Positions 5,126-61,913 of a stretch of DNA of 64,000 nucleotides are shown here, piece after piece. The translations under genes and the position numbers were made by a program. Origin of the DNA: Thiosulfativibrio zosterae (GTDB lineage: Bacteria; Pseudomonadota; Gammaproteobacteria; Thiomicrospirales; Thiomicrospiraceae); assembly GCF_011398155.1 (NCBI RefSeq), contig NZ_AP021888.1, forward strand, positions 578,001 to 642,000, written 5' to 3'. The first letter of the stretch is position 1. The number at the start of each line of letters is the position of its first letter. The notes under the pieces were generated by a model. The model was not told where the DNA came from. It saw only the letters and a list, made by a program, of their open reading frames with translations, and made no database searches.

Positions 5126-5137
5126 GGATTAAGTAAT

Positions 5138-5533
5138 ATGAGTATGTCTGATCCAATTGCGGATATGTTAACTCGCATCAGAAATGGCCAGATGGCTGGT
5201 CATTCAAATGTTGTCATTCCTTCTTCAAAAGTTAAGGTTGCCTTAGCTAAAGTTCTTAAAGATGAAGGTTATGTAAATACATATAGCATTAAAGAAGTAA
5301 ACGGTAAGTCTGAGTTGTCTGTTGATCTTAAGTACTATGAAGGTAAGCCTGTCATAGAAATGATCAAGCGTGTTAGTAGACCAGGTTTACGTGTTTATAA
5401 AAATAAAAATGAATTACCACAAGTAATTGCTGGTATGGGTGTAGCTATTATTTCTACATCTCAAGGAATCATGTCTGATCGTCAAGCTCGTACTGCGGGT
5501 GTTGGTGGTGAGATTATTTGTTACGTTGCTTAA
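5138..5533 (+). CDS. rpsH: 30S ribosomal protein S8
   Basis: 131 residues. S8 binds the central domain of 16S rRNA and, in E. coli, represses the spc operon by binding the rplE leader. The opening [18 protein letters not shown] and the C-terminal signature [17 protein letters not shown] are diagnostic. An AAGGA motif lies upstream of the ATG. spc operon, 10 bases before rplF. Confidence 0.98.
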
Positions 5534-5543
5534 GGAGATTTAG

Positions 5544-6077
5544 ATGTCAAGAATTGCAAAGTCTCCAATTACATTACCCTCTGGTGTTGATGTAAAAGTA
5601 AATGGAACAATGGTAACTGTTAAAGGCGCTAAGGCAACTTTGGAAAAACAGTTAAACAATAAAGTCGTTATTAACATTGCTGATAATGTAATCAATGTTA
5701 GTCCAGTCTCTGAAAGTATTGAAAACTGGGCACAAGCCGGAACTGCAAGAGCTTTAATCAATAATATGGTTAAAGGTGTAACAGTTGGTTTCGAAAAGAA
5801 ACTTATTTTGGTTGGTGTTGGTTATCGTGCGAAAGCTGAAGGTCAAAATCTTAATTTGACATTAGGTTTTTCTCACCCAGTAAATCATGCAATCCCAGCT
5901 GGAATTACAGTTGAAACCCCAACACAGACAGAAATCTTAATTAAAGGTGCTGATAAACAGGTTGTTGGTCAAATTGCTTCAGAAATTCGTGGATACCGTC
6001 CTCCTGAGCCTTATAAAGGTAAGGGTGTTAAGTATTCTGATGAGTTTATTCTTCGCAAAGAAGCTAAGAAGAAATAG
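5544..6077 (+). CDS. rplF: 50S ribosomal protein L6
   Basis: 177 residues, built from two repeated alpha-beta domains. L6 binds the sarcin-ricin loop region near the factor-binding site. It opens [17 protein letters not shown] and carries the C-terminal signature [26 protein letters not shown] precedes the ATG. spc operon, between rpsH and rplR. Confidence 0.98.
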
Positions 6078-13300: not shown

Positions 13301-14106
13301 GGGGTTTGAAATTGATAAAGGCCGCCTGTCTTGACCGACTGGTAGGCATTTTGAATGGTTTGGTCTTTTAACATTTTTTGAATGCTTGCTTTCAGAATTG
13401 GCTGACTTTGTGAAAAGCTCATGCCTGCTTTGATTGCTGGATCATAAAGCAGTTTTAACATCACATAGTCTAATCCCGTTAAATAATCGAGTTTACTCGC
13501 ATCATTGGCAATGCTTGGATTCACCCAGTCAGAATCATTGGGTAATCCAAGGGCTTGGGTGGTTTCTTCCACAATACAGGCTGGTAAAAGCCCACGGCTC
13601 ATCGCATGGTCAACGGGTATGACCACGCTGGCTTGTATAATTTCATGATGCTGGTTTCGTTTAAAACTGGCGATACAATTGGATTCTTTCGCTAAATAAC
13701 CCATCTTTGAGCCTGCCCATTTTTCAATGGTTGTCTTAAAATAAGCGTCTTTGGTTAAGATGATTCTAAAATTGGGTTTATCTTTAAGATGACTTTGTTT
13801 TATAGCGTGGTTCGTGATGCTGGCAAGATGATTCATTTGAACTTGAGCCATTTCTTCGATTAAAGGAATGGGTCCTTGAAGATGCTCGTAGCTTAATTGA
13901 TAAATAATCGGCACTTGCCATTTTACAATTCTGAGATCTGTTTTTTGATATTCGTTTTTCAATGCAACTTCGTTAAAGGCGCGTTGAATGTACTCAGGGT
14001 CTTGCCAATCAGTCAAAGCGTTGGCCTGGCATATCCCACTGAACAAAGCCAAGCTAAGTGGCAAATGCATGGCCAGTCGCAAACTAACTGAATTAAATAA
14101 TGCCAT
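13297..14106 (-). CDS. Exported DUF2927-like protein
   Basis: 269 residues. A signal peptide fits residues 1-30 (hydrophobic LPLSLALFSGIC, cleavage after A-N-A). The body resembles the DUF2927 family, best shown by C177-x2-EETTQALGLPNDS (about 180-192) followed by LDYLTGLDYVMLKLLYDP. The paired glutamates resemble a degenerate metallopeptidase motif, but no HExxH is present, and a single conserved cysteine pair (C144, C177) may form a disulfide. Function unknown. It lies downstream of uvrA on the same strand and overlaps the end of tcdA by four bases. Confidence 0.7.
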   Translation of the reverse strand: MALFNSVSLRLAMHLPLSLALFSGICQANALTDWQDPEYIQRAFNEVALKNEYQKTDLRIVKWQVPIIYQLSYEHLQGPIPLIEEMAQVQMNHLASITNHAIKQSHLKDKPNFRIILTKDAYFKTTIEKWAGSKMGYLAKESNCIASFKRNQHHEIIQASVVIPVDHAMSRGLLPACIVEETTQALGLPNDSDWVNPSIANDASKLDYLTGLDYVMLKLLYDPAIKAGMSFSQSQPILKASIQKMLKDQTIQNAYQSVKTGGLYQFQTP

Positions 14107-14122: not shown

Positions 14123-14134
14123 ACCAGGCCTGGT
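14123..14134. repeat. Dispersed palindrome copy 1, perfect, at the uvrA stop
   Basis: ACCAGGCCTGGT, extended to the perfect 16-base palindrome TGACCAGGCCTGGTCA at 14121-14136. The uvrA TGA stop codon (complement of 14134-14136) is part of it. A/T runs flank both sides. Confidence 0.9.
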
Positions 14135-20126: not shown

Positions 20127-20750
20127 TTAACTAATTTTAATGACACGCCAAGAGGCGGGGATTTTCCAGAGTGCTTCGAGTTCTGTTAAGTTCCCTTCAA
20201 AACAGCCTGGCAAACCCAGCGGTGAGCAAAGCCGATTGGGAATACGCCAGTCTTCTAGCAAAGGACTAGCACCTATTGCATGGGCTGCGCTCTCAGGCCA
20301 GCTGTCCAAGATAAATTTGGCCGGTTTAACCTGAAAGGGGAAGGTGGTTTCACTTTCTAGGACCATTACCAGTTGCCAATCTGATTTGAGTTGCTGAGCC
20401 AATCGAAATCCCAGCGCTAAGGCCGAACTTGAAACCCATAAGCAGAGCGTGGAATGGTTGGATGCATTGTCTGGCGAAAGGTGATTTTGAGCATAAAAAT
20501 CCTCCAAAAATAACCAGGCCTGGTTGTTTTTAGGCGGTTTTTCATGCAATTCTAAGGTTTGAGGTGCGTTGTTATCGGTTTGTACCAAAAAGCTGATATT
20601 CCGACCCGATTGCATAAACAGCTGCAAAACTTCATCATCGATCACCAGCTGGTAATTCAGTGGCAGTTCTTGCGGGTGCTCCATCACATAATGCCACAGG
20701 ACATAACCCTGGGCTTGGGGTGCGGTACTTTGAAGTTGTGCGCAGTTCAT
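20127..20750 (-). CDS. Conserved hypothetical protein following pyrC' (possible DHODH electron-transfer-like)
   Basis: 207 residues from the ATG at complement 20750, ten bases after pyrC'. A longer reading (to 20840) runs back into pyrC'. The C-terminal third has a pattern (TFPFQVKPAKFIL..., PLLEDWRIPNRL, GLPGCFEGNLTELEALW) I associate with uncharacterised gammaproteobacterial proteins sometimes labelled as dihydroorotate dehydrogenase electron-transfer-like. There is no FAD or 2Fe-2S motif of the CxxxCxxC type, so an enzymatic role is not supported. The operon position suggests a link to pyrimidine synthesis. A dispersed palindrome encodes its NQAWL. Confidence 0.6.
   Translation of the reverse strand: MNCAQLQSTAPQAQGYVLWHYVMEHPQELPLNYQLVIDDEVLQLFMQSGRNISFLVQTDNNAPQTLELHEKPPKNNQAWLFLEDFYAQNHLSPDNASNHSTLCLWVSSSALALGFRLAQQLKSDWQLVMVLESETTFPFQVKPAKFILDSWPESAAHAIGASPLLEDWRIPNRLCSPLGLPGCFEGNLTELEALWKIPASWRVIKIS
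20513..20524. repeat. Dispersed palindrome copy 2, perfect, coding
   Basis: ACCAGGCCTGGT inside the hypothetical gene at 20127-20750, read as N-Q-A-W-L on the minus strand. Flanks AAAAATA and TGTTTTT extend the inverted symmetry to 26 bases with one mismatch pair. Confidence 0.9.
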
Positions 20751-20760
20751 CACATTCAAT

Positions 20761-22050
20761 TCAAACGGGGTTGTTACGATACACCGGACGGCCTTGGAAA
20801 TAGGTCGCTTCAATTTGGGCATTAAAATGCCAGCCATCAAACGCAGTATTTTTTCCGGCGCTGACCATATCGGCTTTGTTCAATTGCCATGGAGCATCGG
20901 GATTAATAATACTAAAGTCTGCCGATAAGCTGGTTTCTAAACTGCCGGTATGAATGCCGAGCACTTCCGCTGGATTCACAGTCACCGCACGAATCGCGGT
21001 GATTAAATCTAAAGTGCCATCATCCACCATCTTCAACACCAACGGCAAAAGGGTTTCTAAACCACTCATGCCTGGCTTGCTTTCGCCAAACGGCAAGAGT
21101 TTATCATCACGCCCTAGCGGCGCATGGTCGCTGACAATGGCATCAATAATGCCAGTTTTCACGCCGGCAATCAGCGCATCACGATCAGCATGGCTGCGTA
21201 ACGGGGGGGTGACATGGAAGGTAGAATTAAAACCAATCACATCATAATCGGTCAATAACAGTTGGTGAATTGCTACATCACAGGTCACGGGCAATCCACG
21301 CTTTTTGGCTTCCGCAATCATGTCGACCGAACGCGCAGTGGACAGTTGCGAAAAATGCGCTCGCACACCGGTTTCTTCAACCAACACTAAATCGCGTGCT
21401 AAATCAGTGGTTTCGGCAGATGCAGGGATGTCGGCTAAACCTAAGCGTGAAGACACTGCGCCACTGTGGGCAACGCCATTGTTTTTTAATGACTGATTTT
21501 CGCAGCGATTCATGATTAAAATATCTAAGCTGGCCGCATAGTTCATGGCATTTTTAAGGGTTAAAGCGTTTTGCAGTGGCTGATTGGCTTGGCTCATGGC
21601 GACACAACCCGCTTGTTTTAGCGAGTACATATTACTCAAGCGTTCGCCTTTTAAACCTTGCGTTAAGGCGCCAATCGGTAATACAAATGCGGTGGCTGCT
21701 TGGCGCGCACGGCGTTGAATCAGCTCGGTCACGGCTTGAGTGTCGTTGACCGGAGCGGTGTCCGGTGGGCAACAAATCGTGGTAACGCCACCTGCCACAG
21801 CGGCTTTGGTTTCCGTGGCAATATTGCCCTGAAAATTACCACCCGGTTCCGACAAACGGGCGCACAAATCCACCAGGCCTGGCAAAATCCACTTGCCAGT
21901 GGCATCAATTTCTTGGTCTGCAGTGCCAAATCCTTCGGGGGCTGTATCGCCTATGCCGGCAAAACGTCCCCGCGAAATATACAGGTTGCTCACACAGTCT
22001 AAGTTTTGGGCTGGGTCAATGATGCGGGCATTGTTAATTTGCAATCTCAT
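20761..22050 (-). CDS. pyrC': Dihydroorotase-like, catalytically inactive PyrC' (PyrX)
   Basis: 429 residues, type I dihydroorotase fold. In active enzymes the first metal-binding motif is HxH in a D-x-H-x-H-x-R-EPG context. Here it reads D61-L-C63-A-R65-L-S-EPG, so both histidines are lost. Later landmarks remain: [17 protein letters not shown] and [10 protein letters not shown]. This is the pattern of the Pseudomonas pyrC' product, a non-catalytic partner needed to assemble aspartate transcarbamoylase. Its start overlaps the pyrB stop by four bases, as in that system. A true dihydroorotase should exist elsewhere in the genome. Confidence 0.9.
21872..21883. repeat. Dispersed palindrome copy 3, one mismatch, coding
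   Basis: ACCAGGCCTGGC in pyrC', 11 of 12 bases, read as P-G-L-V on the minus strand. Confidence 0.7.
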
Positions 22051-25272: not shown

Positions 25273-25284
25273 ACCAGGCCTGGT
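25273..25284. repeat. Dispersed palindrome copy 4, perfect, intergenic
   Basis: ACCAGGCCTGGT 16 bases before the CDF transporter ATG, with A/T runs on both sides (ATTTTA and CAAAATT). It may overlap the leader of that gene. Confidence 0.9.
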
Positions 25285-28245: not shown

Positions 28246-29109
28246 TCACGAGGGTTTTAGAGAAGATTTATCATTTAAAAGCGCAAAGGTTTGTTGAAAA
28301 TGTTCGCTGTCGCCCAGTAGCTTGATGAAGACAGCGCTGAGTTGTAGGTCTTCAGTGTGGCTTTCTGTTGGGTGGTATAAACGGTCACCAATAATGGGAT
28401 AGCCGGCTTGTGACAGGTGAATGCGAATTTGGTGTTTGCGACCGGTTTCGATATTCACCTCTACCAAAGAACGCTTGCGCTCGACATCAAACGCTAAACG
28501 CTTGGCGTGACTGATGGCGGGTTTACCATTGACGGGGGAATCATAATCTTGCGGATTTTCTGGAAACTCGCCTGCCACCCAGGCCTGGTAGATTTTAACG
28601 ATTTTTCGCGCTTCAAACAGCTTGCGCAAGGCCACGGCGGTTTGGTGCGAGTGGGCAACCAGCATCAGTCCGTCGGTGGCCTTGTCTAGGCGGTGAATCA
28701 TTAAGCAGGGTTGATTGGTTTTGCCCGGCACATTCAGTTGAATCCAACGATTGAGGGTATTGTGGTCGCTCCACTTAGATCCCTGCGAGCGCATGCCTTT
28801 GGGTTTTATCCACACGCTGTAATCGCCTAGGTCAGCAAATAATTGGGGATCGCTGACGCTTTCATTGAGCACTTTTTCGTCATAGTACAAATACAAAATA
28901 TTGCCAGCTTGCAAGGACTTTTTGGCACGGCGCAGGCGTTGCGGTTTGCTGTCTTCTGCATTCAAAGCCAGCCAAACCGCACCTTTTTGCATGACGGTTT
29001 TGAGATGTTGTTTGGAAAGCCCGAGCGTTTCTGGCATGGCCGCTAGCGCATCAATGGCGCTGATGCCATCTTGAGTGATCAGCAACTGTGCTTCAAATGG
29101 TGAATGCAT
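28246..29109 (-). CDS. RluA-family RNA pseudouridine synthase
   Basis: 287 residues. The catalytic aspartate is D142 in MIHRLDKATDGLMLVA (H139-R-L-D142). Conserved IYQAWVAG, VEVNIETGRKHQIRIHLSQAGYPIIGDRLY follow. The N-terminal part (about 25-75) resembles a degenerate S4-like domain (QKGAVWLA, RLRRAKKSLQAGNILYLYY). Whether it acts on 23S rRNA (RluA/RluC/RluD type) or tRNA (TruC type) cannot be decided by eye. Its stop and start abut the exonuclease gene upstream (shared base 29109). A palindrome copy encodes Y-Q-A-W-V. Confidence 0.9.
   Translation of the reverse strand: MHSPFEAQLLITQDGISAIDALAAMPETLGLSKQHLKTVMQKGAVWLALNAEDSKPQRLRRAKKSLQAGNILYLYYDEKVLNESVSDPQLFADLGDYSVWIKPKGMRSQGSKWSDHNTLNRWIQLNVPGKTNQPCLMIHRLDKATDGLMLVAHSHQTAVALRKLFEARKIVKIYQAWVAGEFPENPQDYDSPVNGKPAISHAKRLAFDVERKRSLVEVNIETGRKHQIRIHLSQAGYPIIGDRLYHPTESHTEDLQLSAVFIKLLGDSEHFQQTFALLNDKSSLKPS
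28578..28589. repeat. Dispersed palindrome copy 5, one mismatch, coding
   Basis: CCCAGGCCTGGT in the pseudouridine synthase, 11 of 12 bases, read Q-A-W-V on the minus strand and flanked on one side by AGATTTTAA. Confidence 0.7.
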
Positions 29110-30452: not shown

Positions 30453-32222
30453 ATGTCAAATAAAGTCAATTCTCATGCTGTCCTGTCAAACCGCTTGGCA
30501 GTTTCTATCTCCGGTTCAGGCGGCAGCGGTGCGCTGACCACGGGGCAGATTTTGTTAAATGCCTTTGGTCTTGCTGGTTTTTATGGCGTGATGAATCGCT
30601 CGTCTGGCCCGCAAATTCGTGGTGGCGAATCGGCGGTGATGTTGTCCTTGTCTGACCAACCGCTTGAACTTTTGCCTGATGTGTTTCAAGTGCACTTTGC
30701 CTTAGATTGGCGCAACTTTGAACGCTTTGCCGATGAAATTCCGCTTAATCAAAATAGCTGGGTTTTTTTCGATAATTCTCGCGAAAAACCACCAGGCCTG
30801 GTTGAAAAAAGTGGTGCAAAGGTGCTGGGTTTGAATTTAAGTGCTACCTTAAAAGATTTGCCTGATGGGCGTGCTAATATGTTGGCTTTGGGCATTTTGG
30901 CAGCGTGGGTTGGATTGGATATTGCTGTTTGCGAACAGGCGTTGCGCAAAACGCTGGGAAAAAAGGGCGATGCGGTATTGAGTTCGTCGCTGGCGGCTTT
31001 GCAAGCGGGTCAGGCTTTGCTATTAGCCAAGTTGCCATCGCAAAATGTTTTGGCTAACTGGCAAGCGCAACCCGCATCTAAGTGGTTGATGTCCGGCAAC
31101 GAGGCAGTCGGTTTGGGTGCTTTGCAAGGTGGCGTTAGATTTGCGGCGGCTTACCCGATTACACCAGCCACTGAAATTGTGGAATATTTAGCGCCCCGAA
31201 TTGAAAAACTGGGTGGTCACTTATTGATAGCCGAAGACGAATTGGCCGCCATTAATATGGTTATCGGTGCTAGTTTTGGTGGCGTGCCGGCCATGACATC
31301 CACTTCGGGCCCTGGGTTTTCCTTAATGACCGAAGCCATGGGCTTGGCAATTGCCAGCGAAACGCCTGTGCTGGTGGTGAATGTAATGCGTGGTGGGCCT
31401 TCGACTGGCATTCCCACCAAGTCTGAGCAAACTGACCTCAATCAAATTTTATACGGATTTCATGGCGAAGCACCCCATGTGGTGCTTGCGCCCATCAGCA
31501 TTGCCGATTGTGCGCCCTGTGCTTTTTGGGCCACCGGCTTGGCAGAAGCCTTGCAAACGCTGGTGGTTTTAATCAGCGACCAGCGCATTGGGCAGTCTAA
31601 AGCCATTTTAGAACCCCTAACCTTTAGTGACCAACCCTTGAAGCGCCAAACATTAGCGCAAGGGGAGCTCAGCGACTATCAACGCTATGCCTTGACTGAA
31701 TCCAGTATTTCGCCCATGTCGGAACCTGGCCTGATGGAAGGCATTTATACCGCGGATGGACTGGAACATAATCCATCGGGTTTGCCTTCCTCGCAAGCCC
31801 TTGACCATCAGCAACAACTTCATAAGCGTGCCGCCAAACTCAATCAATTTGATTATGGCGAGCACTGGGCTTGGAGTAAAGCCTATGCTGTGCCCAACTC
31901 AGCTCGACAAATCTGTTTAGTCACTTGGGGTTCTAGCACGGCGGTGTGCCAAGAAGCCGCTTTGCAAATGCAAACTGCAAGAGTCAGTGTGCAGGTGTTG
32001 GCCTTGCGATTGTTGATGCCGCTGCAGGTGGCTGAGATTCAAACGATTTGCAAAAACCAAGAGGTTTGGGTGGTTGAACAATCAGCTTCAGGACAATTTA
32101 TTCACTATTTGTGGTCGCAACAGGCCATTCCAGCCACAGCGCAATCAATTGCTCAAGCAGGGCCTTTGATGATTTCGGTACGGCAAATTTTGGATGCTAT
32201 TTTGGGAGAAAACCATGAGTGA
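30453..32222 (+). CDS. korA: 2-oxoacid:ferredoxin oxidoreductase, fused gamma-alpha subunit
   Basis: 589 residues. The gamma domain (about 12-190) opens VSISGSGGSGALTTGQIL and has RSSGPQIRGGES. The alpha domain begins about 215 with NEAVGLGALQGGVRFAAAYPITPATEIVEYLA, then STSGPGFSLMTEAMGLAIASETPVLVVNVMRGGPSTGIPTKSEQTDL (split over the CoA/TPP face). It pairs with korB to oxidise a 2-oxoacid (2-oxoglutarate or pyruvate) to acyl-CoA with reduced ferredoxin. The fused layout is that of KorA/OorA-like enzymes; the substrate is not proven. A palindrome copy encodes P-P-G-L-V. Confidence 0.92.
   Translation: MSNKVNSHAVLSNRLAVSISGSGGSGALTTGQILLNAFGLAGFYGVMNRSSGPQIRGGESAVMLSLSDQPLELLPDVFQVHFALDWRNFERFADEIPLNQNSWVFFDNSREKPPGLVEKSGAKVLGLNLSATLKDLPDGRANMLALGILAAWVGLDIAVCEQALRKTLGKKGDAVLSSSLAALQAGQALLLAKLPSQNVLANWQAQPASKWLMSGNEAVGLGALQGGVRFAAAYPITPATEIVEYLAPRIEKLGGHLLIAEDELAAINMVIGASFGGVPAMTSTSGPGFSLMTEAMGLAIASETPVLVVNVMRGGPSTGIPTKSEQTDLNQILYGFHGEAPHVVLAPISIADCAPCAFWATGLAEALQTLVVLISDQRIGQSKAILEPLTFSDQPLKRQTLAQGELSDYQRYALTESSISPMSEPGLMEGIYTADGLEHNPSGLPSSQALDHQQQLHKRAAKLNQFDYGEHWAWSKAYAVPNSARQICLVTWGSSTAVCQEAALQMQTARVSVQVLALRLLMPLQVAEIQTICKNQEVWVVEQSASGQFIHYLWSQQAIPATAQSIAQAGPLMISVRQILDAILGENHE
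30791..30802. repeat. Dispersed palindrome copy 6, perfect, coding
   Basis: ACCAGGCCTGGT in korA, read P-G-L-V, flanked by GAAAAACC and TGAAAAAA. Confidence 0.9.
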
Positions 32223-33628: not shown

Positions 33629-34333
33629 ATGCATTTATTGTTACCCAGTAATGTCGTTTTGAGTGTACGGCGAACGACGCGACAAGATTCTGTGGCTTTA
33701 AAAGTCACCCTTGATCGCAATACTTTGTTGGTGCCTAAACGCTTTTCGGATAAAAAAGTTCAGGCGTTTATTCAAGAGCAGTTGACTTGGATTGAGCAAA
33801 GCATTCATAAACAACGATTGCGTTTGCCTGCGCCGCAGTTAGAGGCTGAGTTGAATCAGGTGATGCGTTATGGGGAAGTCTTTCATATTGAGTTTGAGGC
33901 AGACATTAACACTTGTGTTTGGGATGATGTATCAAAGCTTGTTTTTGTGCCCAAAACCCTCCAAAATCAACCAGGCCTGGTTAAAAATACCTTAAAAAAA
34001 GCCTTGTTAAATGACATTTCTCAAACTTTGCCCGCCCAAACTTTACGCTGGGCAGAGCGCATGGGGGTGGCAAAACAATTGGGAAATATAACCATCAAAA
34101 ACTACAAGTCGCGCTGGGGCAGTTGCACCCACGATGGTCGAGTGCAATTTAATTGGCGGCTGGTATTTTTTGCGCCAGAGGTGATTGATTATGTGATTAT
34201 TCACGAGTTGGCGCATTTAACTCATCTTAACCATTCCAAAGCTTTTTGGGCTGAAGTGGCGCGTTTTTGCCCAAACTATAAAACCCATCAAGCCACACTC
34301 AAGCAGCAATCTAGGCAAGCCATGGCATTCTAA
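33629..34333 (+). CDS. YgjP-like metallopeptidase domain protein
   Basis: 234 residues, DUF45/M48-related. Zinc ligands in VIIHELAHLTHLNHSKAFW: H192, E193, H196 and H202. The preceding IKNYKSRWGSCTHDGRVQFNWRLVFF (157-180) is the other family hallmark. Soluble, no signal. Often found near restriction or repair genes, though its substrate is unknown. Two bases after the ferritin-like gene stop. A palindrome copy encodes N-Q-P-G-L-V at about 113-118, a region between conserved blocks. Confidence 0.92.
   Translation: MHLLLPSNVVLSVRRTTRQDSVALKVTLDRNTLLVPKRFSDKKVQAFIQEQLTWIEQSIHKQRLRLPAPQLEAELNQVMRYGEVFHIEFEADINTCVWDDVSKLVFVPKTLQNQPGLVKNTLKKALLNDISQTLPAQTLRWAERMGVAKQLGNITIKNYKSRWGSCTHDGRVQFNWRLVFFAPEVIDYVIIHELAHLTHLNHSKAFWAEVARFCPNYKTHQATLKQQSRQAMAF
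33970..33981. repeat. Dispersed palindrome copy 7, perfect, coding
   Basis: ACCAGGCCTGGT in the YgjP-like gene, read P-G-L-V, flanked by AAAATCA and TAAAAAT. Confidence 0.9.
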
Positions 34334-34956: not shown

Positions 34957-37734
34957 ATGCAAACCATTCACATTACCGCCAACAGTCGTTTAAGCCAATT
35001 TTTAAAACAACAACTCACGCACTTTGAGCAGGGCGTTGGCTTGACTGCGCAAGTGCAAACCTTAGCGCAATGGTGGCAAACTTGGCACTCTAACGCCTTA
35101 TTAATGGGTGAACTGCCAGGCGAATTTTTAACGGCTCAAAAGTTATCCAATTTTGAAGCGCAACTGATTTGGGAAAACTTATTAGCGCAAGCCAGTGAAG
35201 CCCAAGATGAATTGCGTTTATTAAACCCCAAATCAACTGCCAAACAAGCGCACCAGGCCTGGTTGTTTTTGCAAGAATATTTGCAAGAAAAAGACTTTGA
35301 AAATCGCTTTTTAGGCGCAGAAACACGCTTGTGGTTGGACTTAAAAACGGCTTATCAGGCCTATCTCGCAAAACACCATTTGATTGATGATGCGCTATGG
35401 ATGCAGCAACAATTAGCCGCTTTGAGTCAGGGCGTAGGCAGTTTGCCGGCGCAATTTTTATTGCATGGTTTTGATGACTTAAGCCCCAATATGCTGCGTT
35501 GGAAAGCCATTGTTGAAAGTCGCGGTACGCAAGTTTTGGTGAACACTGTGCCACAAAATTACCGCAAATCTAGGATATTCGAAGCACTTTCGCCCAAGCA
35601 AGAGGCGCAACAAGCCGCGCTTTGGGCGGTGCAACAATGGCAAGCCTTAGCAGCTCAAAAACCCCTAGCCCAAGTGCGTATTGGGATAGTCGCTCCCAAT
35701 GTGCAAGAAGTGGTGTTTGATTTGAAATGGGCGTTAGATCAACAGTTGGTATTGGCAGGCTTGAGTGAGTTTGAGGCAGAGCAACCGGCCTACAATGTTT
35801 CTTTGGGTCAGCCGTTAACGCAAGTGCCTGTGGTTAAAAATGCTCTCATGACGCTGCAACTTTTATTTAATCCCATGCAATCTTGTCGTTATGCCGACTG
35901 GTCTGCTTGGTTGCTGTCGCCCTATACCTTAGGCAATCAACTTGAACGCCATGCGCTCGATGCGCAGTTGCGCAAAATGCAATGGGCGACCTTTAAATGG
36001 CCGAACCTGATTCAAAAATCTGAAAAGCATTTTGCCGCTTTAAGCCCCCTAAAACGCGCCTTGCAAACTTGGGAACCGCTGGCAAAAGCCATGGCTCAAA
36101 AATGCTCCTTGCCCGACTTTATTAAGCAGGTTAAAGACTGTTTGGGGCATTTTCACTGGGCCAAAACCAATGCGGCTGGCGCACTTAATTCGGTAGAATT
36201 TCAACAGGCGCAAGCCTTTATGCAAGCCTTAGATGCGCTGACCTTACTCAAAACCCCCTTTGCTCAGCAAACGGCTGCGGCTTGGCTGGGTTTACTCAAT
36301 CAATATGTTGCGGAATTGGTGCATCAACCTCAAAGTACTCGAGTGCAACCCATTCAAATTCTGGGGATGCTCGAAGCGGGTGGCCAGCAGTTTGATGCGC
36401 TTTGGGTGATGGGGCTAACCGACCAAGCCTGGCCTAGAATGCCGCAACCCAATCCGTTTATTCCATTTGAATTGCAGCGCGAACACAAATTACCCCGTGC
36501 CGATGCGCAACGAGAACTGCAATATGCCCTGACCTTAACCCAAGGGTTTGCGCAAGCTGCGCCTGAAGTGGTTTGGAGTTATGCGCAACAGGTGGAAGGG
36601 GCATCGCGTTTGCCCAGTCCGTTATTGGTGGCAGAGTCAATTTACGCTGGCGCAGAATTTGGGCAGCTTGAAACCTTAGAAGTCCCGTCTGATTTTAAAG
36701 GGCTTGCAGAACTGGCGTATCAACAACCCCTTTCACAACGCTGGGTGGAGGATGCCCTAGCGCCGCCTGTGCCTTTGGGGCAAAAATCCCCAGGCGGTAC
36801 GGCGATTTTGGCGGCGCAAAATGCCTGTCCTTTAATGGCGTTTATGGATTATCGCTTGGGTGCCAGTAAAGCCTTAGAAAGCGTTGAAGAGGGTTTGCCA
36901 TCGACCCAATTGGGTAATCTGATTCACAAGGTTTTAGAGCAATTGTGGGCAGCATTAAAAACCCAAACGCAACTGTTAGCCTTATCCGAAGATCAACAAA
37001 CAGCGCAACTGCAAGATTTGATTGCAGCCCAAATGACCTTACTCGCTGGCCAGTTTGATGCGCAATATTTGGCTTTAGAGGCACAACGCATCCTAAAATT
37101 GCTCCAGGCCTGGTTAAATTTAGAGAAACAACGCCTGCCTTTTAAGGTGTTGGATAACGAGTTAGAAACCGATATTGAGTTGGCGGGGATTCGCTTTAAA
37201 ATTAAGGTCGACCGTATTGATGAAGTTAATGGCGATTGGATTATTTTAGATTACAAAACCGGCAAAGCCTCCATCAACGGACTGACTTCAGAACGGTTTG
37301 ATGCACCGCAATTGGCGATTTATTTATTTGCGATGAATGCCCTGGCTCAAAAACTCAAGTTCACCGAACCGGCTGATGTGGCGGGCTTGGGTTATGGCAT
37401 TTTGCACAGCGATGATGGCGTTAAAATGAATGTGTTGCTTGACCAAGACGAACGCTTGGTTGATAAGCGCACCACCGGATTTAGTTTGCAAACCTTTGAC
37501 AAAATCAGTGGCAAAGAAGAGGGTGAGTTTAGCGGCTGGGTATGGTCTGATTTTTTACAGCATTTACAAGATGAAGTGGAAAAATTGGCGCTGAGTGTGC
37601 AACAAGGAGAGGCGGCCATGGTGTTTGAAAAAGATGACGATATCAAATTTGCGGCCAGTTATTTAGCCTTGCGCGTGCCAGAGGTCAAAGCCCAATTGGG
37701 CAGGGTATCCGAAACTGAGGAGGTGAGCGAATGA
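34957..37734 (+). CDS. AddB-like PD-(D/E)XK nuclease (TIGR03623-type DNA repair protein)
   Basis: 925 residues. The N-terminal 700 residues form an inactive helicase-like region as in AddB (VLLHGFDDLSPN-like segment, LEAGGQQFDALWVMGLTDQAWPRMPQPNPFIP). The C-terminal nuclease has QNACPLMAFMDYRLGA, LGNLIHKVLEQLW and the RecB motif DRIDEVNGDWIILDYKTGKAS around 750-770, with the catalytic D and K. The iron-sulfur cysteines of classical AddB are not seen. It overlaps the AddA-like gene by four bases; together they should process double-strand breaks. Two palindrome copies lie inside. Confidence 0.88.
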   Translation: MQTIHITANSRLSQFLKQQLTHFEQGVGLTAQVQTLAQWWQTWHSNALLMGELPGEFLTAQKLSNFEAQLIWENLLAQASEAQDELRLLNPKSTAKQAHQAWLFLQEYLQEKDFENRFLGAETRLWLDLKTAYQAYLAKHHLIDDALWMQQQLAALSQGVGSLPAQFLLHGFDDLSPNMLRWKAIVESRGTQVLVNTVPQNYRKSRIFEALSPKQEAQQAALWAVQQWQALAAQKPLAQVRIGIVAPNVQEVVFDLKWALDQQLVLAGLSEFEAEQPAYNVSLGQPLTQVPVVKNALMTLQLLFNPMQSCRYADWSAWLLSPYTLGNQLERHALDAQLRKMQWATFKWPNLIQKSEKHFAALSPLKRALQTWEPLAKAMAQKCSLPDFIKQVKDCLGHFHWAKTNAAGALNSVEFQQAQAFMQALDALTLLKTPFAQQTAAAWLGLLNQYVAELVHQPQSTRVQPIQILGMLEAGGQQFDALWVMGLTDQAWPRMPQPNPFIPFELQREHKLPRADAQRELQYALTLTQGFAQAAPEVVWSYAQQVEGASRLPSPLLVAESIYAGAEFGQLETLEVPSDFKGLAELAYQQPLSQRWVEDALAPPVPLGQKSPGGTAILAAQNACPLMAFMDYRLGASKALESVEEGLPSTQLGNLIHKVLEQLWAALKTQTQLLALSEDQQTAQLQDLIAAQMTLLAGQFDAQYLALEAQRILKLLQAWLNLEKQRLPFKVLDNELETDIELAGIRFKIKVDRIDEVNGDWIILDYKTGKASINGLTSERFDAPQLAIYLFAMNALAQKLKFTEPADVAGLGYGILHSDDGVKMNVLLDQDERLVDKRTTGFSLQTFDKISGKEEGEFSGWVWSDFLQHLQDEVEKLALSVQQGEAAMVFEKDDDIKFAASYLALRVPEVKAQLGRVSETEEVSE
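35252..35263. repeat. Dispersed palindrome copy 8, perfect, coding
   Basis: ACCAGGCCTGGT near the start of the AddB-like gene, read H-Q-A-W-L, followed by TGTTTTTG. Confidence 0.9.
37103..37114. repeat. Dispersed palindrome copy 9, one mismatch, coding
   Basis: TCCAGGCCTGGT in the AddB-like gene, 11 of 12 bases, read L-Q-A-W-L, followed by TAAATTTAG. Confidence 0.75.
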
Positions 37735-41942: not shown

Positions 41943-41949
41943 AACACCA

Positions 41950-41996
41950 AAAAGCCGCTAAAAATGACCAGGCCTGGTTAAATTTAAGCGGCTTTT
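41950..41996. terminator. Bidirectional terminator with the dispersed palindrome as its loop
   Basis: AAAAGCCGCT (41950-41959) pairs with AGCGGCTTTT (41987-41996). The 27 bases between hold ACCAGGCCTGGT at 41967-41978, itself able to fold. A and T runs flank the outer stem, so it can serve both the methyltransferase (+) and the chemoreceptor (-), which converge here. Confidence 0.8.
41967..41978. repeat. Dispersed palindrome copy 10, perfect, intergenic
   Basis: ACCAGGCCTGGT within the terminator between convergent genes, flanked by TAAAAATG and TAAATTTA. Confidence 0.9.
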
Positions 41997-42001
41997 GGCT
42001 T

Positions 42002-45445: not shown

Positions 45446-47157
45446 AAGCTAGCACTGGAGCGTTTATTGATGGGAATCACTTGAACGGGTGCATTTCCGA
45501 CTGGTTTTAATGCAGGATCTTGTTCTATAGGTTGTGCCGAGTTGAGCGCATTTTCTGGCATCGGGTTCACCAAGTCTTCGATATTGTAAACTGGTTTAGG
45601 TGCTGGCAAAGCGATAGGTTTTCCCTTGCTGTTGTAGGTTGCCCACACCAATTCTCTATCCACTCTTTGGGTATCTTCATCAAAATAAAGTCGTCCGGTT
45701 TTGCCGGTGTTCAAACACAAATCCGGGGCAAAGCTGTCTTGTTTGAGTAGGGTTTGCAAGCTGTCCCATCCAAAAGCCTCAAAAGGGGTTTGTACCCTAT
45801 TCTCGGAAGGGTTAGATGCGATAGCGACACTCATAGTGGGGAAGATAACTCCTTGTAAATCTTTCAGCGGAGGCGTATCACTAAAATGGGTTGGTGTTAA
45901 TTTTGAACTGGCATAGAGTGGCAAAGACAATTCAAAAAACTTCATTTGAGGTTTAAACACCGCCAAAGTTTGCGCATCAGACAATACCACCAGCGCATCT
46001 AAATCTTGACGAGGGCGTGGCGTGAATTCGAGTTTTTCTTGCAGTAACCAGTTGAGGTTATTCACCCGCGATTGGCTTTGGCTTTCATTAATCGCGTCCC
46101 CTAAGGCTTTACGCAAGTTAGGGCGTTTTTCAGCAAAGGTGTTTAAAGTGACTTGATGATTTTCGTCCAATAATAACCAGGCCTGCTGAATTTGTTCTGC
46201 CAATTTACTGTCACTGGCCGCATCGCTGGTCAGTAGGCTAATTGATTTGTGTCCGCGGTAGCTAAGCTGTTGCACAATTTGTAAGGCTTCTGTTGAGCTA
46301 CCAAACCCCATTTGTTTAAAAGGAGTGTTGTTGACGGTATTAAGCGCCCAAATTTGCTTAGCCTGAGTTGGGTCGATTTGATTGGACAACTCAGCAATCG
46401 CTTCCTTGGTTAAAGGCCCTAAAATGGTATCGGCCCCGTCTTGCAAGGCTTGTTTAGAAGTTTTGAGCACTTCATTGACATCAGAAGAGTCATAAAAAGC
46501 CAGGGTTAATTTTGGGGCTTGAGCAAATTGATATTTTAAAATGCCATTGCGAATTTGCTCTGAAATTTTGGCATAAGGGCCTTTGAAGGGCAAAAGCACC
46601 GCGACTTTATGCGGCAGTAAGACAGCCTTTTGATGCAGTTTGAGTTGTGGAATTAAGTGCTGTAAGAAAATACCCTCTGAATTAAAGTTGGCAAGGTCTT
46701 CATAGCCTGTATTGCGCCAAACTTTGGGGCGCTTTTGCACCTCTACAAAACTCAACCAGTCTAGCATGTCTGAGTTATGGGTTAAGAGCGCTTCCGCTTG
46801 AAGCGCTTGCAGGGTTTCTTGAGGAAGGTCTTTTAGCGTTTGATAAATTTGATATTCAATGGCTAATTGCTGAGATGCATCGACTTCTTGCCACAGGCTT
46901 TCAGACAGGTTGAGCCATCTTGCCCAATTATTGGCTTGTTGCGCATCACGAATGTCGGCTTGTAACATCGCTTGACGCGAGAGTTGGGTGGTGGGCGCTG
47001 GCGTTTCTTCGGTGGTGACGCGATTGGCGGTTGTGTCTTTTGGTGACTCAACACTGGGTGTGGAGCAGCCGTGCAACAAGCTCATCAGCACAAGCAAGAA
47101 AGGGGTAAACCAGATGAATTGGAATTTCAGTGTTGAAAACTGCAAACGAACATTCAT
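45442..47157 (-). CDS. lpoA: Penicillin-binding protein activator LpoA (LppC family)
   Basis: 571 residues, lipoprotein: lipobox LLHGC with C31. LpoA is the outer-membrane activator of PBP1A. The N-terminal part is TPR-like (about 50-170) and the C-terminal part a periplasmic-binding fold (about 190-510: VAVLLPFKGPYAKISEQIRNGIL, TILGPLTKEAIAELSNQI, ISLLTSDAASDSKLAEQIQQAW). Shorter than E. coli LpoA (678), as in many relatives. A palindrome copy encodes Q-Q-A-W-L-L-L at about 329. Divergent from rsmI, as in E. coli. Confidence 0.92.
   Translation of the reverse strand: MNVRLQFSTLKFQFIWFTPFLLVLMSLLHGCSTPSVESPKDTTANRVTTEETPAPTTQLSRQAMLQADIRDAQQANNWARWLNLSESLWQEVDASQQLAIEYQIYQTLKDLPQETLQALQAEALLTHNSDMLDWLSFVEVQKRPKVWRNTGYEDLANFNSEGIFLQHLIPQLKLHQKAVLLPHKVAVLLPFKGPYAKISEQIRNGILKYQFAQAPKLTLAFYDSSDVNEVLKTSKQALQDGADTILGPLTKEAIAELSNQIDPTQAKQIWALNTVNNTPFKQMGFGSSTEALQIVQQLSYRGHKSISLLTSDAASDSKLAEQIQQAWLLLDENHQVTLNTFAEKRPNLRKALGDAINESQSQSRVNNLNWLLQEKLEFTPRPRQDLDALVVLSDAQTLAVFKPQMKFFELSLPLYASSKLTPTHFSDTPPLKDLQGVIFPTMSVAIASNPSENRVQTPFEAFGWDSLQTLLKQDSFAPDLCLNTGKTGRLYFDEDTQRVDRELVWATYNSKGKPIALPAPKPVYNIEDLVNPMPENALNSAQPIEQDPALKPVGNAPVQVIPINKRSSASF
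46176..46187. repeat. Dispersed palindrome copy 11, one mismatch, coding
   Basis: ACCAGGCCTGCT in lpoA, 11 of 12 bases, read Q-A-W-L on the minus strand, flanked by ATAATA. Confidence 0.7.
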
Positions 47158-48120: not shown

Positions 48121-48941
48121 GAGCCTGGTGGCTATTAAGTTTAGTTTTATTGAGTGGCAATCTATGGGCAGACAAGCCAGAGGTGATGCTGCTTAAAACC
48201 TATGATGGCTCGCAGAACATTCAAGGATGGCTGATGAGTGAGAAACTCGATGGCGTGCGCGCACTTTGGGATGGACACAAATTAGTGACCCGCCAAGGCA
48301 ATGAGATTCATGCACCAGAAGAATTTTTGCAACGCTTGCCGCCGTTTGCTTTGGATGGTGAATTATGGACGCAGCGTGCCGACTTTGAAAATATTGTGTC
48401 GATCGTTCGTAAAAACCAGCCAGACAAAGGTTGGCAGCAAATTACTTATCAGATTTTTGAGGTGCCGAATCAGTCGGGCGGTTTATTGGCAAGGCTTCAA
48501 GTGTTGAAAGATTTTTTACAATTACACAATGCACCCAAGCTGCGAATCATTGAACAAATCCCTGTGCAAAGCCGCTCAGAGGTATTGCAGGCCTTGGCAG
48601 AAGTGACGTCAAAAGGCGGCGAAGGTTTGGTGGTGCGTGATGGGCGTCAGCCGTATCAAACTGGTCGCTTAAACAGTGTGCTGAAAGTAAAGGCTTATCA
48701 AGATGCGGAATGCAAAGTGGTACAAATTTTACCAGGCCTGGGTAAATTTGAGGGCAAAATGGGTGCAGTAGAGTGTGAAATGGCGGATGGAAAAGTCATC
48801 AAAATAGGGTCTGGATTTAGTGATGCACAAAGAAATCAACCACCAGAAGTGGACAGTTTTGTGACCTTTAAATTCTACGGACTGACAGAAAAAGGTAATC
48901 CAAGGTTTCCGGTTTTTTTAAGAGTTAGAAATGAGCCGTAA
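48117..48941 (+). CDS. ligE: Exported minimal ATP-dependent DNA ligase (LigE type)
   Basis: 274 residues. Signal peptide about 1-18 (WWLLSLVLLSGNLWA) means periplasmic export. Nucleotidyltransferase motifs: I with the adenylated lysine SEKLDGVR (K43), RQGNEIHAP, III FALDGELWTQ, IV EGLVVRDG, V NSVLKVKAYQD, and a short OB-fold (CKVVQILPGLGKFEGKMGAVECEM). No N-terminal DNA-binding domain. LigE enzymes occur in naturally competent proteobacteria and are thought to act on extracellular or incoming DNA. A palindrome copy encodes L-P-G-L-G. Confidence 0.92.
   Translation: MRAWWLLSLVLLSGNLWADKPEVMLLKTYDGSQNIQGWLMSEKLDGVRALWDGHKLVTRQGNEIHAPEEFLQRLPPFALDGELWTQRADFENIVSIVRKNQPDKGWQQITYQIFEVPNQSGGLLARLQVLKDFLQLHNAPKLRIIEQIPVQSRSEVLQALAEVTSKGGEGLVVRDGRQPYQTGRLNSVLKVKAYQDAECKVVQILPGLGKFEGKMGAVECEMADGKVIKIGSGFSDAQRNQPPEVDSFVTFKFYGLTEKGNPRFPVFLRVRNEP
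48731..48742. repeat. Dispersed palindrome copy 12, one mismatch, coding
   Basis: ACCAGGCCTGGG in ligE, 11 of 12 bases, read P-G-L-G, flanked by AAATTTT and TAAATTTG. Confidence 0.75.
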
Positions 48942-50330: not shown

Positions 50331-52370
50331 ATGACTAAAAAATTTCAATTAGTTTCACAGTATCAACCGGCTGGCGATCAGCCGACGGCCATCAAAGAAT
50401 TGGTCGATGGGCTAGAGTCTGGCGAGGCTTTTCAAACCCTGCTAGGGGTGACGGGTTCTGGGAAAACCTTTACCGTTGCCAATGTGATTCAACAGGTGCA
50501 AAGACCAACCATTATCATGGCCCACAATAAAACTTTGGCGGCGCAACTCTATGGCGAAATGAAAGGGTTTTTTCCGCACAACGCGGTGGAATATTTTGTG
50601 TCTTATTATGATTACTATCAGCCAGAAGCCTATGTGCCAGCATCTGACACCTATATCGCCAAAGACTCGTCAGTGAATGAGCAGATAGAACAGTTGCGTT
50701 TATCGGCGACCAAAGCCTTGCTGGAGCGTGAAGATGTCATTTTGATTGCCACGGTATCGGCCATTTATGGGTTGGGTGATCCTGATCAATATCTCAAAAT
50801 GATTTTGCAGATGCGTTTGGGGGATAAGGTTAAGCAGCGTGATTTATTAGCGCAACTCATCAATATGCAATATACCCGTAATGACATTGAATTATGGCGC
50901 GGCCACTTTAGAGTGCGTGGAGATGTGATCGATGTGTTTCCAGCAGAAGCTGAACAATATGCGGTGCGCATTGAATTATTTGATGACGAGGTGGAAAGCA
51001 TTGCGTGGTTTGACCCTTTAACTGGCGAAGTTCTCAGTCGTCCGACTCGGGTGACCATTTACCCCAAGTCGCATTATGTAACGCCACGCGAACAGATTTT
51101 AAAAACCATTGATCAAGTGAAAGTGGATTTAAAAATTCGTTTAGAAGAATTCCGCTCCAATTTTAAGCTGGTGGAGGCGCAGCGCTTAGAAGAACGCACC
51201 AAGCTCGATATTGAAATGATGTTAGAGCTGGGCTATTGCACCGGGATTGAAAACTATTCCCGATATTTATCAGGGCGCCCAGCGGGTTCGCCACCACCAA
51301 CCTTATTGGATTATTTACCTAAAAACGCCTTGATGGTAATCGATGAAAGCCATGTCACCATTCCGCAAATTGGTGGGATGTATAAAGGCGACCGTTCTCG
51401 TAAAGAAAACTTAGTCACCTATGGATTTAGATTGCCTTCGGCGATGGATAATCGACCGCTGAAATTTGATGAGTTTGAAGCCATTATGCCGCAAACCTTA
51501 TTTGTATCAGCCACCCCGGGCAATTATGAAGCTGAACAAAATGCCACGATTGTTGAACAGGTCGTCCGTCCTACCGGATTGTTAGACCCAGAAATTGAGG
51601 TGCGCCCAGCCTTAACGCAGGTGGATGACTTGTTGGGCGAGGTGCGTATTCGCGCCGATAAAAACGAACGGGTTTTGGTCACCACTTTGACCAAACGCAT
51701 GGCGGAAAATCTCACCGAATACCTTGAAGACCACAATGTACGGGTGCGTTATTTACATTCGGATATCGATACGGTTGAGCGTATTGAGATCATTCGAGAT
51801 TTGCGCTTGGGCGAGTTTGATGTGTTGGTGGGGATTAACTTGTTGCGAGAAGGGTTGGATATTCCCGAGGTTTCTTTGGTCGCCATTTTAGATGCGGATA
51901 AGGAAGGTTTTTTGCGCTCCGAGCGTTCGCTAATTCAAACCATTGGCCGAGCTGCTCGTAATGTGCAAGGAAAAGCCATTTTATATGCTGACAAAATCAC
52001 CAAGTCGATGGAGAAAGCCATCGGCGAAACCGAACGGCGCCGCGAAAAGCAAATAGCGCACAATTTAAACTTGGGTATTTCGCCACAAAGCCTCAATAAA
52101 AAGGTCACCGATATTCTCGAAAACTCGCCCTATGCGCCAAAACCAACCAGGCCTGGTCAAAATACTAAGGTGGCTGATTCAAAAGGGGATTATGAGGTTG
52201 CGCAAAAAGTGAAGAAAATGACGCCCGCGGAACTGCTGCGCGAAATCAAGCAAGCTGAGAAGCAAATGTACCAAGCGGCAAAAGATTTAGACTTTGAAAA
52301 GGCCGCCATGCTGCGTGACCAAGTAAAAACACTCAAATCAACTATGGTTGGTGTGGGTGATTTGGGTTAA
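50331..52370 (+). CDS. uvrB: UvrABC excinuclease subunit B
   Basis: 679 residues from the ATG at 50331 ([21 protein letters not shown]). A TTG at 50304 would add nine residues with no family support. UvrB verifies damage after UvrA and loads UvrC. Walker [14 protein letters not shown], the beta-hairpin region [33 protein letters not shown] spread over residues about 92-125, [37 protein letters not shown], and the C-terminal UVR domain ([25 protein letters not shown]). A palindrome copy encodes P-T-R-P-G-Q in the linker before the UVR domain. Confidence 0.97.
52146..52157. repeat. Dispersed palindrome copy 13, perfect, coding
   Basis: ACCAGGCCTGGT in uvrB, read T-R-P-G, followed by CAAAATA. 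Confidence 0.9.
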
Positions 52371-59682: not shown

Positions 59683-60795
59683 TTGCGAATACTCGATACA
59701 TATTTAGTCAAAGAATGGCTTTTAACTTTTTTAGCAGTCCTTCTGGTGCTGTTATTAATCACTTTTGGCACAGAAGCCACTAAGTTGTTGGCCATAGCTG
59801 TTGAGGGTAAATTGCCCCCCAGTGTGTTATTAGAAGTTTTATTGCTAAAAATCCCGCCAGCCTTGGAAGTTATTTTACCTTTGGTGGCTTTGTTAAGTGT
59901 GATGATGGCAATAGGGCGGCTCTATCAAGACCAAGAAATGGTGATTTTGAATAGCTGCGGCATTGCCCCTGCCTACTTTCAAAAGCGTCTGGTGATATTT
60001 TTGGTGCCTTTGGCGCTGATTACCGCTTTTATTACCTTAGTGGTGACGCCCTGCTCTTTTCAGCAAGAAAGAGCCTTAATTGCGCAAGCGCAAGTCAACT
60101 CTCCTTTGGCCGCTTTGGTACCCGGAAAGTTTAATGAACTCCCTAATCAACAAGGTATTTTTTATGCGCAATCGATCAGCGCGGATGGCGACTTGCGGTC
60201 AATTTGGGTGCGCTTAAAAACGCCAGAGCAAGATGTCTTGCTCATGGCACCCTTGGGCAAGTTTGAGTGGATTGCAGGGAAGTTGGCTTTGGTTTTATTG
60301 GATGGACACAGTTATCAAGGGTTAAGTGCGGGCTCTGAAGTGACGGTGCGTTCTTTTAAGCGTTTTGAAGGATTTCTCCCCACTCTTCAAGTTACTCCGC
60401 CAGGGCCGCAGCGTTTTGAAAAGTCAACCTTAACCCTTTGGCAATCCGAAGATCCAAAAGACTTGGCCTTATTACAGTGGCGTTTAGTCACGCCTATCAG
60501 TGTGGTTGTTTTAGGGTTGTTGGGTTTACGCATGAGTAAAACAGGACCTCGTGAAGGGCGCTTTGCAAAAATATTTTTAGCCTTAGTGTTGTATGTTGCC
60601 TACAACCAATTACTGGTCACAACCAAAGAAGCAGCAGGTGATGGTCATTGGCCTATCTGGTTAGGTTTATGGCCGGTACCGGTGTTTTTCTTGTGGTTTG
60701 CGCTGACAAAATTAACCCTAAAAATAACCAGGCCTGGTTATTTTTACGCGGAATATTGGGTTAATTTAGTGAAACCCAAGGAGTCTTCACCATGA
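59683..60795 (+). CDS. lptF: LPS export permease LptF
   Basis: 370 residues from the TTG at 59683 (LRILDTYLVKEWLL); a TTG at 59653 would give 380 but lies over the promoter. LptF with LptG forms the inner-membrane part of the LptB2FG lipopolysaccharide extractor. Membrane segments at both ends (LLTFLAVLLVLLLITF, VILPLVALLSVMMAIG, three near the C-terminus) flank a periplasmic beta-jellyroll domain (PGKFNELPNQQGIFYAQSIS). A palindrome copy encodes I-T-R-P-G-Y at the C-terminus. Overlaps lptG by four bases. Confidence 0.92.
   Translation: MRILDTYLVKEWLLTFLAVLLVLLLITFGTEATKLLAIAVEGKLPPSVLLEVLLLKIPPALEVILPLVALLSVMMAIGRLYQDQEMVILNSCGIAPAYFQKRLVIFLVPLALITAFITLVVTPCSFQQERALIAQAQVNSPLAALVPGKFNELPNQQGIFYAQSISADGDLRSIWVRLKTPEQDVLLMAPLGKFEWIAGKLALVLLDGHSYQGLSAGSEVTVRSFKRFEGFLPTLQVTPPGPQRFEKSTLTLWQSEDPKDLALLQWRLVTPISVVVLGLLGLRMSKTGPREGRFAKIFLALVLYVAYNQLLVTTKEAAGDGHWPIWLGLWPVPVFFLWFALTKLTLKITRPGYFYAEYWVNLVKPKESSP
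60719..60746. repeat. Dispersed palindrome copy 16, perfect, 28 bases with flanks, coding
   Basis: ACCAGGCCTGGT at 60727-60738, flanked by TAAAAATA and TATTTTTA, giving an uninterrupted 28-base perfect palindrome. It lies in lptF and is the most symmetric copy in the window. Confidence 0.95.
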
Positions 60796-61913
60796 ATTCT
60801 ATTGAACGCTATTTAGGTCGTGTTGTGGTGGGGCATACCTTGTTGGTTCTGATGGTTTTATTGCTGATCTTAGGTTTTTCAGAATTTATGATTCAGTTGG
60901 GCAAGATCAATGCCGACTATACCTTGCAAAAAGGGGTGCTTTATACGCTGCTCAAGTTGCCGGTCTATGGTTATGAGATTTTTCCGGTGGCCATTTTGAT
61001 TGGCACCTTGTTGGGCTTAGGTAGCTTGGCCAATCATGCAGAATTAACCATCTTGCGCGTGACAGGCTGGTCCATCGGACGCATTTTTTGGGGCGTGATG
61101 AAAAGTGTTTTCTTATTGTGGTTGGTTGCTGCCGTAATTGGTGAAATTTGGGCGCCGCAAGCGGAGTCTTATGCCAAAAAACTGCGTGGCGAAGCGCTAC
61201 ATAGTAGCTTTTCGATAGGCAGTTCAGCCGATATTTGGTTGAAGGATGAGCAGAAATATATTCATATTGAACGCGTAATCAATGAAAAATTATTCCATCA
61301 TGTCACGCTCTATCATATTCAAAACCAACAGCTCGTTGAACGCATTTATGCCGAAAAGGCCAGTTATGATGAGGCCTCAGGGCAATGGAAACTATTTCCA
61401 ATCCTAGATAAAAAATTACAATGGCAGGCCTTACCCGCTGAAAACCTAGAGAGCATGGCGTTTGCCGAGCCACCAAAACAATTGAATTTGGTGGTGGAAC
61501 AAAAACCTTTTGAAATGGTGAGTTTACCCGTCACGCCTGCTTTATTAGAAACCTTACAAGTTGAAACTCGGTATATGGGCATTGTTGATTTATACGGGTA
61601 TATTGATTTTTTGCAAGCCAATGCTTTAGATGCAGAGCCTTATAAATTGGCGTTTTGGCGTAAGTTGGCGACACCTTTGGTTATTTTGGGCATGATTGCC
61701 TTGGTGTTTCCGTTAATTTTTGGGTCTCAAAGACAAGTGAGCATGGGGCAGAGGATTTTTGTGGGGATTATGATTGGCATGAGCTTTCATCTACTCAATC
61801 AGATTTTTGGCAATCTCACGGTGGTTTATCATTTGCCAACCTTGGCTGGTGCCATGTTGCCTTCTTTGGTCTTTATGAGCATCGCTTTTTGGATGCTCAA
61901 ACGGGTGCGTTAA
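60792..61913 (+). CDS. lptG: LPS export permease LptG
   Basis: 373 residues. Membrane segments at about 12-35, 55-80 and 98-118 and three near the C-terminus (LATPLVILGMIALVFPLIFG, FVGIMIGMSFHLLNQIFGNL, LAGAMLPSLVFMSIAFW) flank a periplasmic domain. The second YjgP/YjgQ-family protein of the LptB2FG complex. Coupled to lptF by overlap and preceded by an AAGGAG ribosome binding site. Converges on the glycosyltransferase gene ten bases away with no terminator seen. Confidence 0.94.
   Translation: MNSIERYLGRVVVGHTLLVLMVLLLILGFSEFMIQLGKINADYTLQKGVLYTLLKLPVYGYEIFPVAILIGTLLGLGSLANHAELTILRVTGWSIGRIFWGVMKSVFLLWLVAAVIGEIWAPQAESYAKKLRGEALHSSFSIGSSADIWLKDEQKYIHIERVINEKLFHHVTLYHIQNQQLVERIYAEKASYDEASGQWKLFPILDKKLQWQALPAENLESMAFAEPPKQLNLVVEQKPFEMVSLPVTPALLETLQVETRYMGIVDLYGYIDFLQANALDAEPYKLAFWRKLATPLVILGMIALVFPLIFGSQRQVSMGQRIFVGIMIGMSFHLLNQIFGNLTVVYHLPTLAGAMLPSLVFMSIAFWMLKRVR

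Follow-up and report, generated by a model that had tools for sequence, protein, structure and literature searches.

A palindromic motif with helically phased A/T flanks in Thiosulfativibrio zosterae, a candidate uptake-type sequence

According to a 2025 paper, discrimination of DNA at binding by motifs such as the USS and the DUS is known only in Neisseriaceae and Pasteurellaceae (PMC12616744). USS and DUS share one oddity, an unusually strong consensus (PMC1626085). In H. influenzae, 65% of the USS lie in ORFs and the copies are evenly spaced (PMC1939737), uptake is better for USS whose AT tracts are rigidly bent, and circular DNA proves as good a substrate for uptake as linear DNA, which implies internal kinked loops (PMC7811141). 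Other iterated or symmetric sites include the HIPs, GC-rich palindromes that switch between relatives (PMC4390886), and the E. coli gyrase motif, which is symmetric, 130 bp long and periodic in GC content at 10.75 bp (PMC6379681). A literature search returned no report of uptake or transformation for Thiomicrospiraceae. The palindrome analysed here was not found described in the literature covered, most subscription papers lying outside the search and an earlier mention being possible, and a search by its core letters gave no microbial genome motif among the matches listed.

The window, that is the whole stretch of DNA that was analysed, comprises 64,000 nt of contig NZ_AP021888.1 (bases 578,001-642,000 of 2,645,427 bp). 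It contains 13 copies of the palindrome CCAGGCCTGG, against 0.03 expected. Genome-wide there are 346 copies, at a mean interval of ~7.6 kb, and none in the reversed-sequence control. The window copies are listed in Table 1. Two extended symmetries in the window had already been noticed in a sequence-only reading as 28 perfect bases in one copy and 26 bases with one mismatched pair in another, and both descriptions are correct (TAAAAATAACCAGGCCTGGTTATTTTTA and AAAAATAACCAGGCCTGGTTGTTTTT, respectively). In the lptF frame the perfect 28-mer is translated as L K I T R P G Y F Y, and its flanks score 11.0 (left) and 15.1 (right). The terminator-like inverted repeat that holds the copy at 41968 lies in window positions 41943-42001, with two convergent genes either side.

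Table 1. Copies of the palindrome and associated features, in window coordinates.
Feature	Position	Remarks
Core copy	14124..14133	beside uvrA, between two ORFs
26-bp near-perfect palindrome AAAAATAACCAGGCCTGGTTGTTTTT	20506..20531, core 20514-20523	one mismatched pair
Core copy	21873..21882	weak flanks
Core copy	25274..25283	phased flanks on both sides
Core copy	28579..28588	phasing in right flank only
Core copy	30792..30801	phasing in left flank only
Core copy	33971..33980	strong phasing in left flank
Core copy	35253..35262	phasing in right flank only
Core copy	37104..37113	phased flanks on both sides
Core copy	41968..41977	convergent intergenic gap, within terminator-like stem (AAAAGCCGCT..AGCGGCTTTT)
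Variant copy CCAGGCCTGC	46177..46186	one mismatch at core edge
Core copy	48732..48741	phasing in right flank only
Core copy	52147..52156	within uvrB, weak flanks
Perfect 28-bp palindrome TAAAAATAACCAGGCCTGGTTATTTTTA	60719..60746, core 60728-60737	in last codons of lptF
Phased-tract region round the 60719-60746 copy	60668..60797 (dyad ±65 bp)	approximate, extent from 114-copy average

To describe the flanks, 114 copies from the window and from 40 stretches of 20 kb across the chromosome (864 kb together) were aligned, and a position weight matrix (PWM) was built from the 228 symmetrised flanks, d being the distance outward from the 10-bp core. A plateau of W was found at a fixed offset on both sides, with W frequencies of 0.89-0.97 at d4-8 where the background is 0.57 (z about 10-12), far from the average composition of the genome. 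The outward consensus of both sides is T Y A W W T T T R R s s s n n W W W W n s s n n n W W W W n, and the two sides show the same behaviour. The W frequency passes from 0.97 at d6 to an S trough of 0.26 at d12, and then through 0.88 (d18), about 0.4 (d21-22), 0.86 (d28), 0.44 (d33) and 0.75 (d39), the peaks beyond the first tract being placed at d17-18, d28 and d38-39 with G/C-rich gaps between them. The tracts recur with a best period of about 10.9-11 bp over four to five turns, to ~60 bp on either side of the dyad, and the modulated region measures about 110-120 bp in total. In successive 21-bp bins the phasing amplitude was 0.258, 0.174 and 0.053 (null 0.015±0.007); modulation stayed above chance to about d63, with nothing farther out. 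The sequence-only reading had described a W-tract on at least one side of most copies; W-rich flanks are indeed real, and the pattern they belong to continues through four to five turns of the helix to the left and to the right of the core.

The phasing is present in the 67 deep-coding copies as well as in the 46 intergenic ones. Over d13-44 its amplitude gave z = 31 for this palindrome, versus |z| <= 2 for 12 control palindromes of the same genome, among them AGGCCT outside CAGGCCTG. A general background periodicity of 10-11 bp was rejected as the source, since neither random flanks nor the 12 control palindromes gave a comparable signal. The TpA share of the W steps was 0.03, 0.08 and 0.09 in tracts 1-3, depleted from 0.17 genome-wide, and in this avoidance of TpA the tracts resemble rigid, phased, bent A-tracts. 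The mean pairwise identity of the flanks (0.311) equals that of column-shuffled flanks, and the maxima are similar (0.58 vs 0.54). As the earlier reading had proposed, the flanks thus keep their composition at fixed offsets and look selected rather than copied.

Taken singly, each flank already forms a W-tract. When left and right flanks were randomly re-paired, the best of 114 copies reached at least this length in 93% of the trials, so that the copy singled out earlier is unexceptional. Selection for a longer palindrome per se was rejected, as the column frequencies already predict a 28-mer; symmetry between the two flanks is itself favoured at most weakly (z about 2-3 at d4-14).

The coupling of flanks to core was assessed by a scan of the 864 kb in which only the flank columns of the model were scored and the core was left out. 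Positions scoring >= 20 numbered 78, against 1 in the reversed sequence, and only three of the peaks at this level lay away from an exact core, all three being one-mismatch cores. Flank scores >= 10 with a core-like centre were found at 85 exact cores, 5 with one mismatch and 1 with two. As the peaks of the flank-only scan sit on exact or one-mismatch cores, strong phased flanks exist only within this motif. The core itself is nearly invariant, and the excess of perfect over singly mismatched copies among those with phased flanks (85 vs 5) is as expected of USS/DUS.

Copies were assigned to coding or intergenic DNA by a simple longest-ORF mask, according to which 46 of the 114 (40%) lie outside ORFs, in 8% of the DNA. 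The other 60% are scattered over all relative positions within ORFs, and some of them are in conserved genes, lptF and uvrB for example. The copies as a whole are spaced more evenly than by chance (gap CV 0.59 vs 0.82±0.07, p = 0.0005), gaps <1 kb making up 2.7% versus 15.6% in random placement, and the counts per 20 kb have a variance/mean of 0.42. No trend in copy density along the replication axis was found (p = 0.49). The known chromosomal sites parS and matS are regional, unlike the uniformly dense palindrome. Uptake sequences are reported to have similar traits of distribution (PMC1939737, PMC1626085).

The motif was then compared across 63 Thiomicrospiraceae genomes, a set that an order-wide selection did not enlarge and that includes no further member of the genus of the window genome. 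The nearest named relative found is Thiomicrospira microaerophila (PepA 67% identical), a match that puts the window genome in this family. The sequence CAGGCCTG is abundant in 32 of the 63 (236-1173 copies) and low in 31 (0-74 copies), and both states occur within single genera. In PWMs of the relatives, which are partial and in some cases small samples, G014 (genus g6) retains only the first A/T tract round the core, a flanking A/T tract is slight or missing in the g5 genomes of the sample, and G012 (genus g3) shows N-CAGGCCTG-N plus a short T tract. Among the genomes sampled, long phasing was seen in the window genome only, and the one-sided pattern of three phased tracts, counted 233 times there, reaches at most 68 in any other. 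G055 and G002, two motif-poor genomes of g3, yielded no clear motif in its place. In the low-CAGGCCTG half of the family DprA is encoded, and ComEC in nearly all genomes checked. Two sequences from a genus-g7 sample, TGATGCATCA and CGTGCGCACG, were rejected as further dialects, being parts of a 177-bp tandem repeat; in G006 (L167:1-1300) a 177-bp tandem repeat has at least 8 units in a likely repeat-protein gene. A repeat containing CCTTGGCGGCAGCGAG occurs in G008 (L220-L223) at about 98 copies in 80 kb of sampled sequence.

Three relatives without the palindrome, G040, G041 and G044 (g6; L210-L219, L226-L237), carry a related asymmetric motif, AAAATCTRCCAGGYTGGG. It takes the form of an 18-mer, AAAATCT[GA]CCAGG[CT]TGGGK, whose left half (AAAA..CCAGG) parallels that of the palindrome, and its 13-mer is present in 314-358 copies in each of these three genomes and in 0-1 in the others. 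This motif has sharp boundaries and no long phasing; 37 of 56 sites fall outside ORFs, and five close inverted pairs, 27-29 bp apart, occur. At the variable letter, 31 of 32 sites in G040 have C and all 24 sites sampled in G041 and G044 have T, and the C/T difference holds at orthologous positions whose surroundings are merely 72-80% identical. Through this genome-wide, concerted letter change the dispersed motif behaves like the dialects of DUS/USS. A repeated intergenic element of ~60 bp (CTCGCC..GGTAAGGCGAG) was also observed immediately before some asymmetric copies (L212, about 13885-14095), and elements of this type have many occurrences in all three genomes.

Taken together, the strict consensus, even spacing, intergenic enrichment, related dialects, asymmetric sister motif and inverted pairs lead us to favour, by a slight tilt of the evidence, the view that the palindrome is a new uptake-type sequence of the USS/DUS kind, palindromic and extended. 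The likeness to the Haemophilus USS suggested earlier holds for the layout, a core plus helically spaced A/T tracts, and its functional side is taken up here as a proposal. What was observed is the core, the phasing and its extent, the coupling of flanks to core, the spacing, the placement in the genome, the dialects and their change in concert; we infer an uptake receptor as the partner that binds the copies. A surface receptor of the type IV pilus/competence machinery would read the two-fold symmetric core YRACCAGG|CCTGGTYR and would prefer DNA pre-bent on both sides by A-tracts in phase with the helix. Bending would then be the reason for the phasing: it would help to fold the DNA into a loop entering the outer-membrane pore, and the dyad of the two-armed bent site would, as we ourselves infer, sit at the tip of this loop. 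Biased uptake together with homologous recombination would spread and maintain the copies by molecular drive, and in this way the genome would record the preferences of the receptor.

ComEC and DprA are encoded in the window genome. Both are near universal in the family and do not separate motif-rich from motif-poor genomes, which makes them weak evidence. A receptor of the minor-pilin type (ComP or ComN) was looked for with the GspH/FimT Pfam model, which had no match in the window genome, its matches being limited to three motif-poor relatives. Two ORFs of the window genome have type IV prepilin leaders, GFTLLE and GFTLVE (L121:987-1883 and 5090-5671).

The main rival of the uptake reading is a dimeric chromosome-organising protein that would bind CCAGG|CCTGG and wrap or bend about 110-120 bp every ~7.6 kb, so compacting or dividing the nucleoid. 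The two-fold symmetry of core and flanks, the phasing over ±60 bp from the dyad at a period of 10.9-11 bp, the strict dependence of the flanks on the core, and the even spacing at uniform density would all suit such a protein. It fits poorly with a palindrome that is near background in half of the family genomes, congeners of motif-rich ones included, and that is replaced in three species by the unphased asymmetric 18-mer; moreover, relatives sharing the core lack the long phasing, and the core is much stricter than usual regulatory or architectural sites (compare PMC1626085). We therefore regard this explanation as unlikely, if still worth serious attention. It is likewise doubtful that each copy would be a positioned nucleoprotein particle, with a dimer at the palindrome and about 110-120 bp of pre-bent DNA wrapped every ~7.6 kb.

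Strong sites of DNA gyrase, an enzyme that wraps about 130 bp round a central cleavage site, would agree with the flanks in so far as the E. coli motif is similar in length, symmetry and period (PMC6379681), and a palindromic 4-base stagger would suit the central GGCC. That motif is degenerate, whereas the flank phasing here needs an intact core, and relatives share the core without phasing. At the annotated cut of phage Mu the flank filter gave z = -0.5 and other places in Mu ranked higher, which is a weak, single-site test; on pSC101 the filter gave no single clear peak. On the core dependence of the flanks and the lack of a match at the Mu cut site, gyrase was rejected as very improbable. 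A HIP1-like palindrome kept by a DNA methyltransferase recognising CCWGG, GGCC or AGGCCT within the core was rejected with similar firmness. Iteration, GC-richness and switching between relatives are indeed as in HIPs (PMC4390886), and CCAGGCCTGG holds two abutting CCWGG sites, but the methyltransferase families do not track the motif: PF00145 (C5) is absent in the window genome, G004, G009, G013, G014, G018 and G023, and PF01555 (N6/N4) in the window genome and many other motif-rich genomes, as judged from these two Pfam families only, whose absence does not prove absence of modification. The 100 bp of phased flanks would also be left unexplained. Bidirectional intrinsic terminators, which the enrichment between genes and the stem at 41968 might suggest, are highly improbable, as 60% of the copies lie in ORFs at any relative position, not confined to transcript ends, and helical phasing would be of no use to them. 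Least credible is an origin from a small mobile element or one of REP type, since, numerous and dispersed with a strict core as they are, the copies have flanks alike only to the level of column frequencies (0.311, which largely excludes copying or transposition) and sit inside lptF and uvrB.

If the uptake reading is true, a self-DNA trait would have evolved again in a third, unrelated family, one of sulfur oxidisers. With its altered versions in relatives, the motif is a candidate third group of self-DNA uptake signals beside those of the two known bacterial families. The palindromic and asymmetric dialects would form a natural series for finding the receptor, and the long phased bent region would give a direct handle on how stiff DNA folds to enter the cell. 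If instead a wrapping protein is responsible, a sequence-programmed chromosome architecture would be revealed; in the particle form, this would be a nucleosome-like, sequence-programmed bacterial chromosome in about half of a family, lost or rewired in the rest. Under either reading, a pattern of ~110 bp has been impressed on the sequence hundreds of times, coding DNA included, which points to an unusually strong force.

Among the known systems, the cyanobacterial HIP1 (GCGATCGC) is alike in being a GC-rich, highly iterated palindrome with presence/absence switching among relatives, and differs from the present motif, which has long phased flanks, an asymmetric sister motif and no matching methyltransferase among the two families covered. 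Similarities to the E. coli gyrase motif lie in its length of about 120-130 bp, its symmetry and its GC periodicity near 10.75 bp; here, in contrast, a 10-bp core is almost invariant and required, relatives lack the periodicity, and the Mu site is out of phase. Known USS and DUS are non-palindromic and reach about 32 bp, whereas the palindrome described here reaches about 110-120 bp, which counts against the uptake reading, as does long phasing in no other genome of those sampled. The USS of Pasteurellaceae (Hin-USS AAGTGCGGT, Apl-USS ACAAGCGGT) has an unrelated, asymmetric core whose inner GCGG is absent from CCAGGCCTGG, has two tracts on one side where those of the palindrome stand to the left and right and span four to five turns, and is more numerous. 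The two are alike in a strict short core, hundreds of evenly spaced copies, intergenic enrichment with many genic copies, A/T segments about one turn apart, and lineage dialects. The DUS of Neisseriaceae, whose receptor is ComP, is unrelated in sequence and differs from the palindromic core with its long phased flanks, but it shares with the motif of Thiomicrospiraceae the family-wide dialects round a conserved inner core and the inverted pairs, found here in the asymmetric form.
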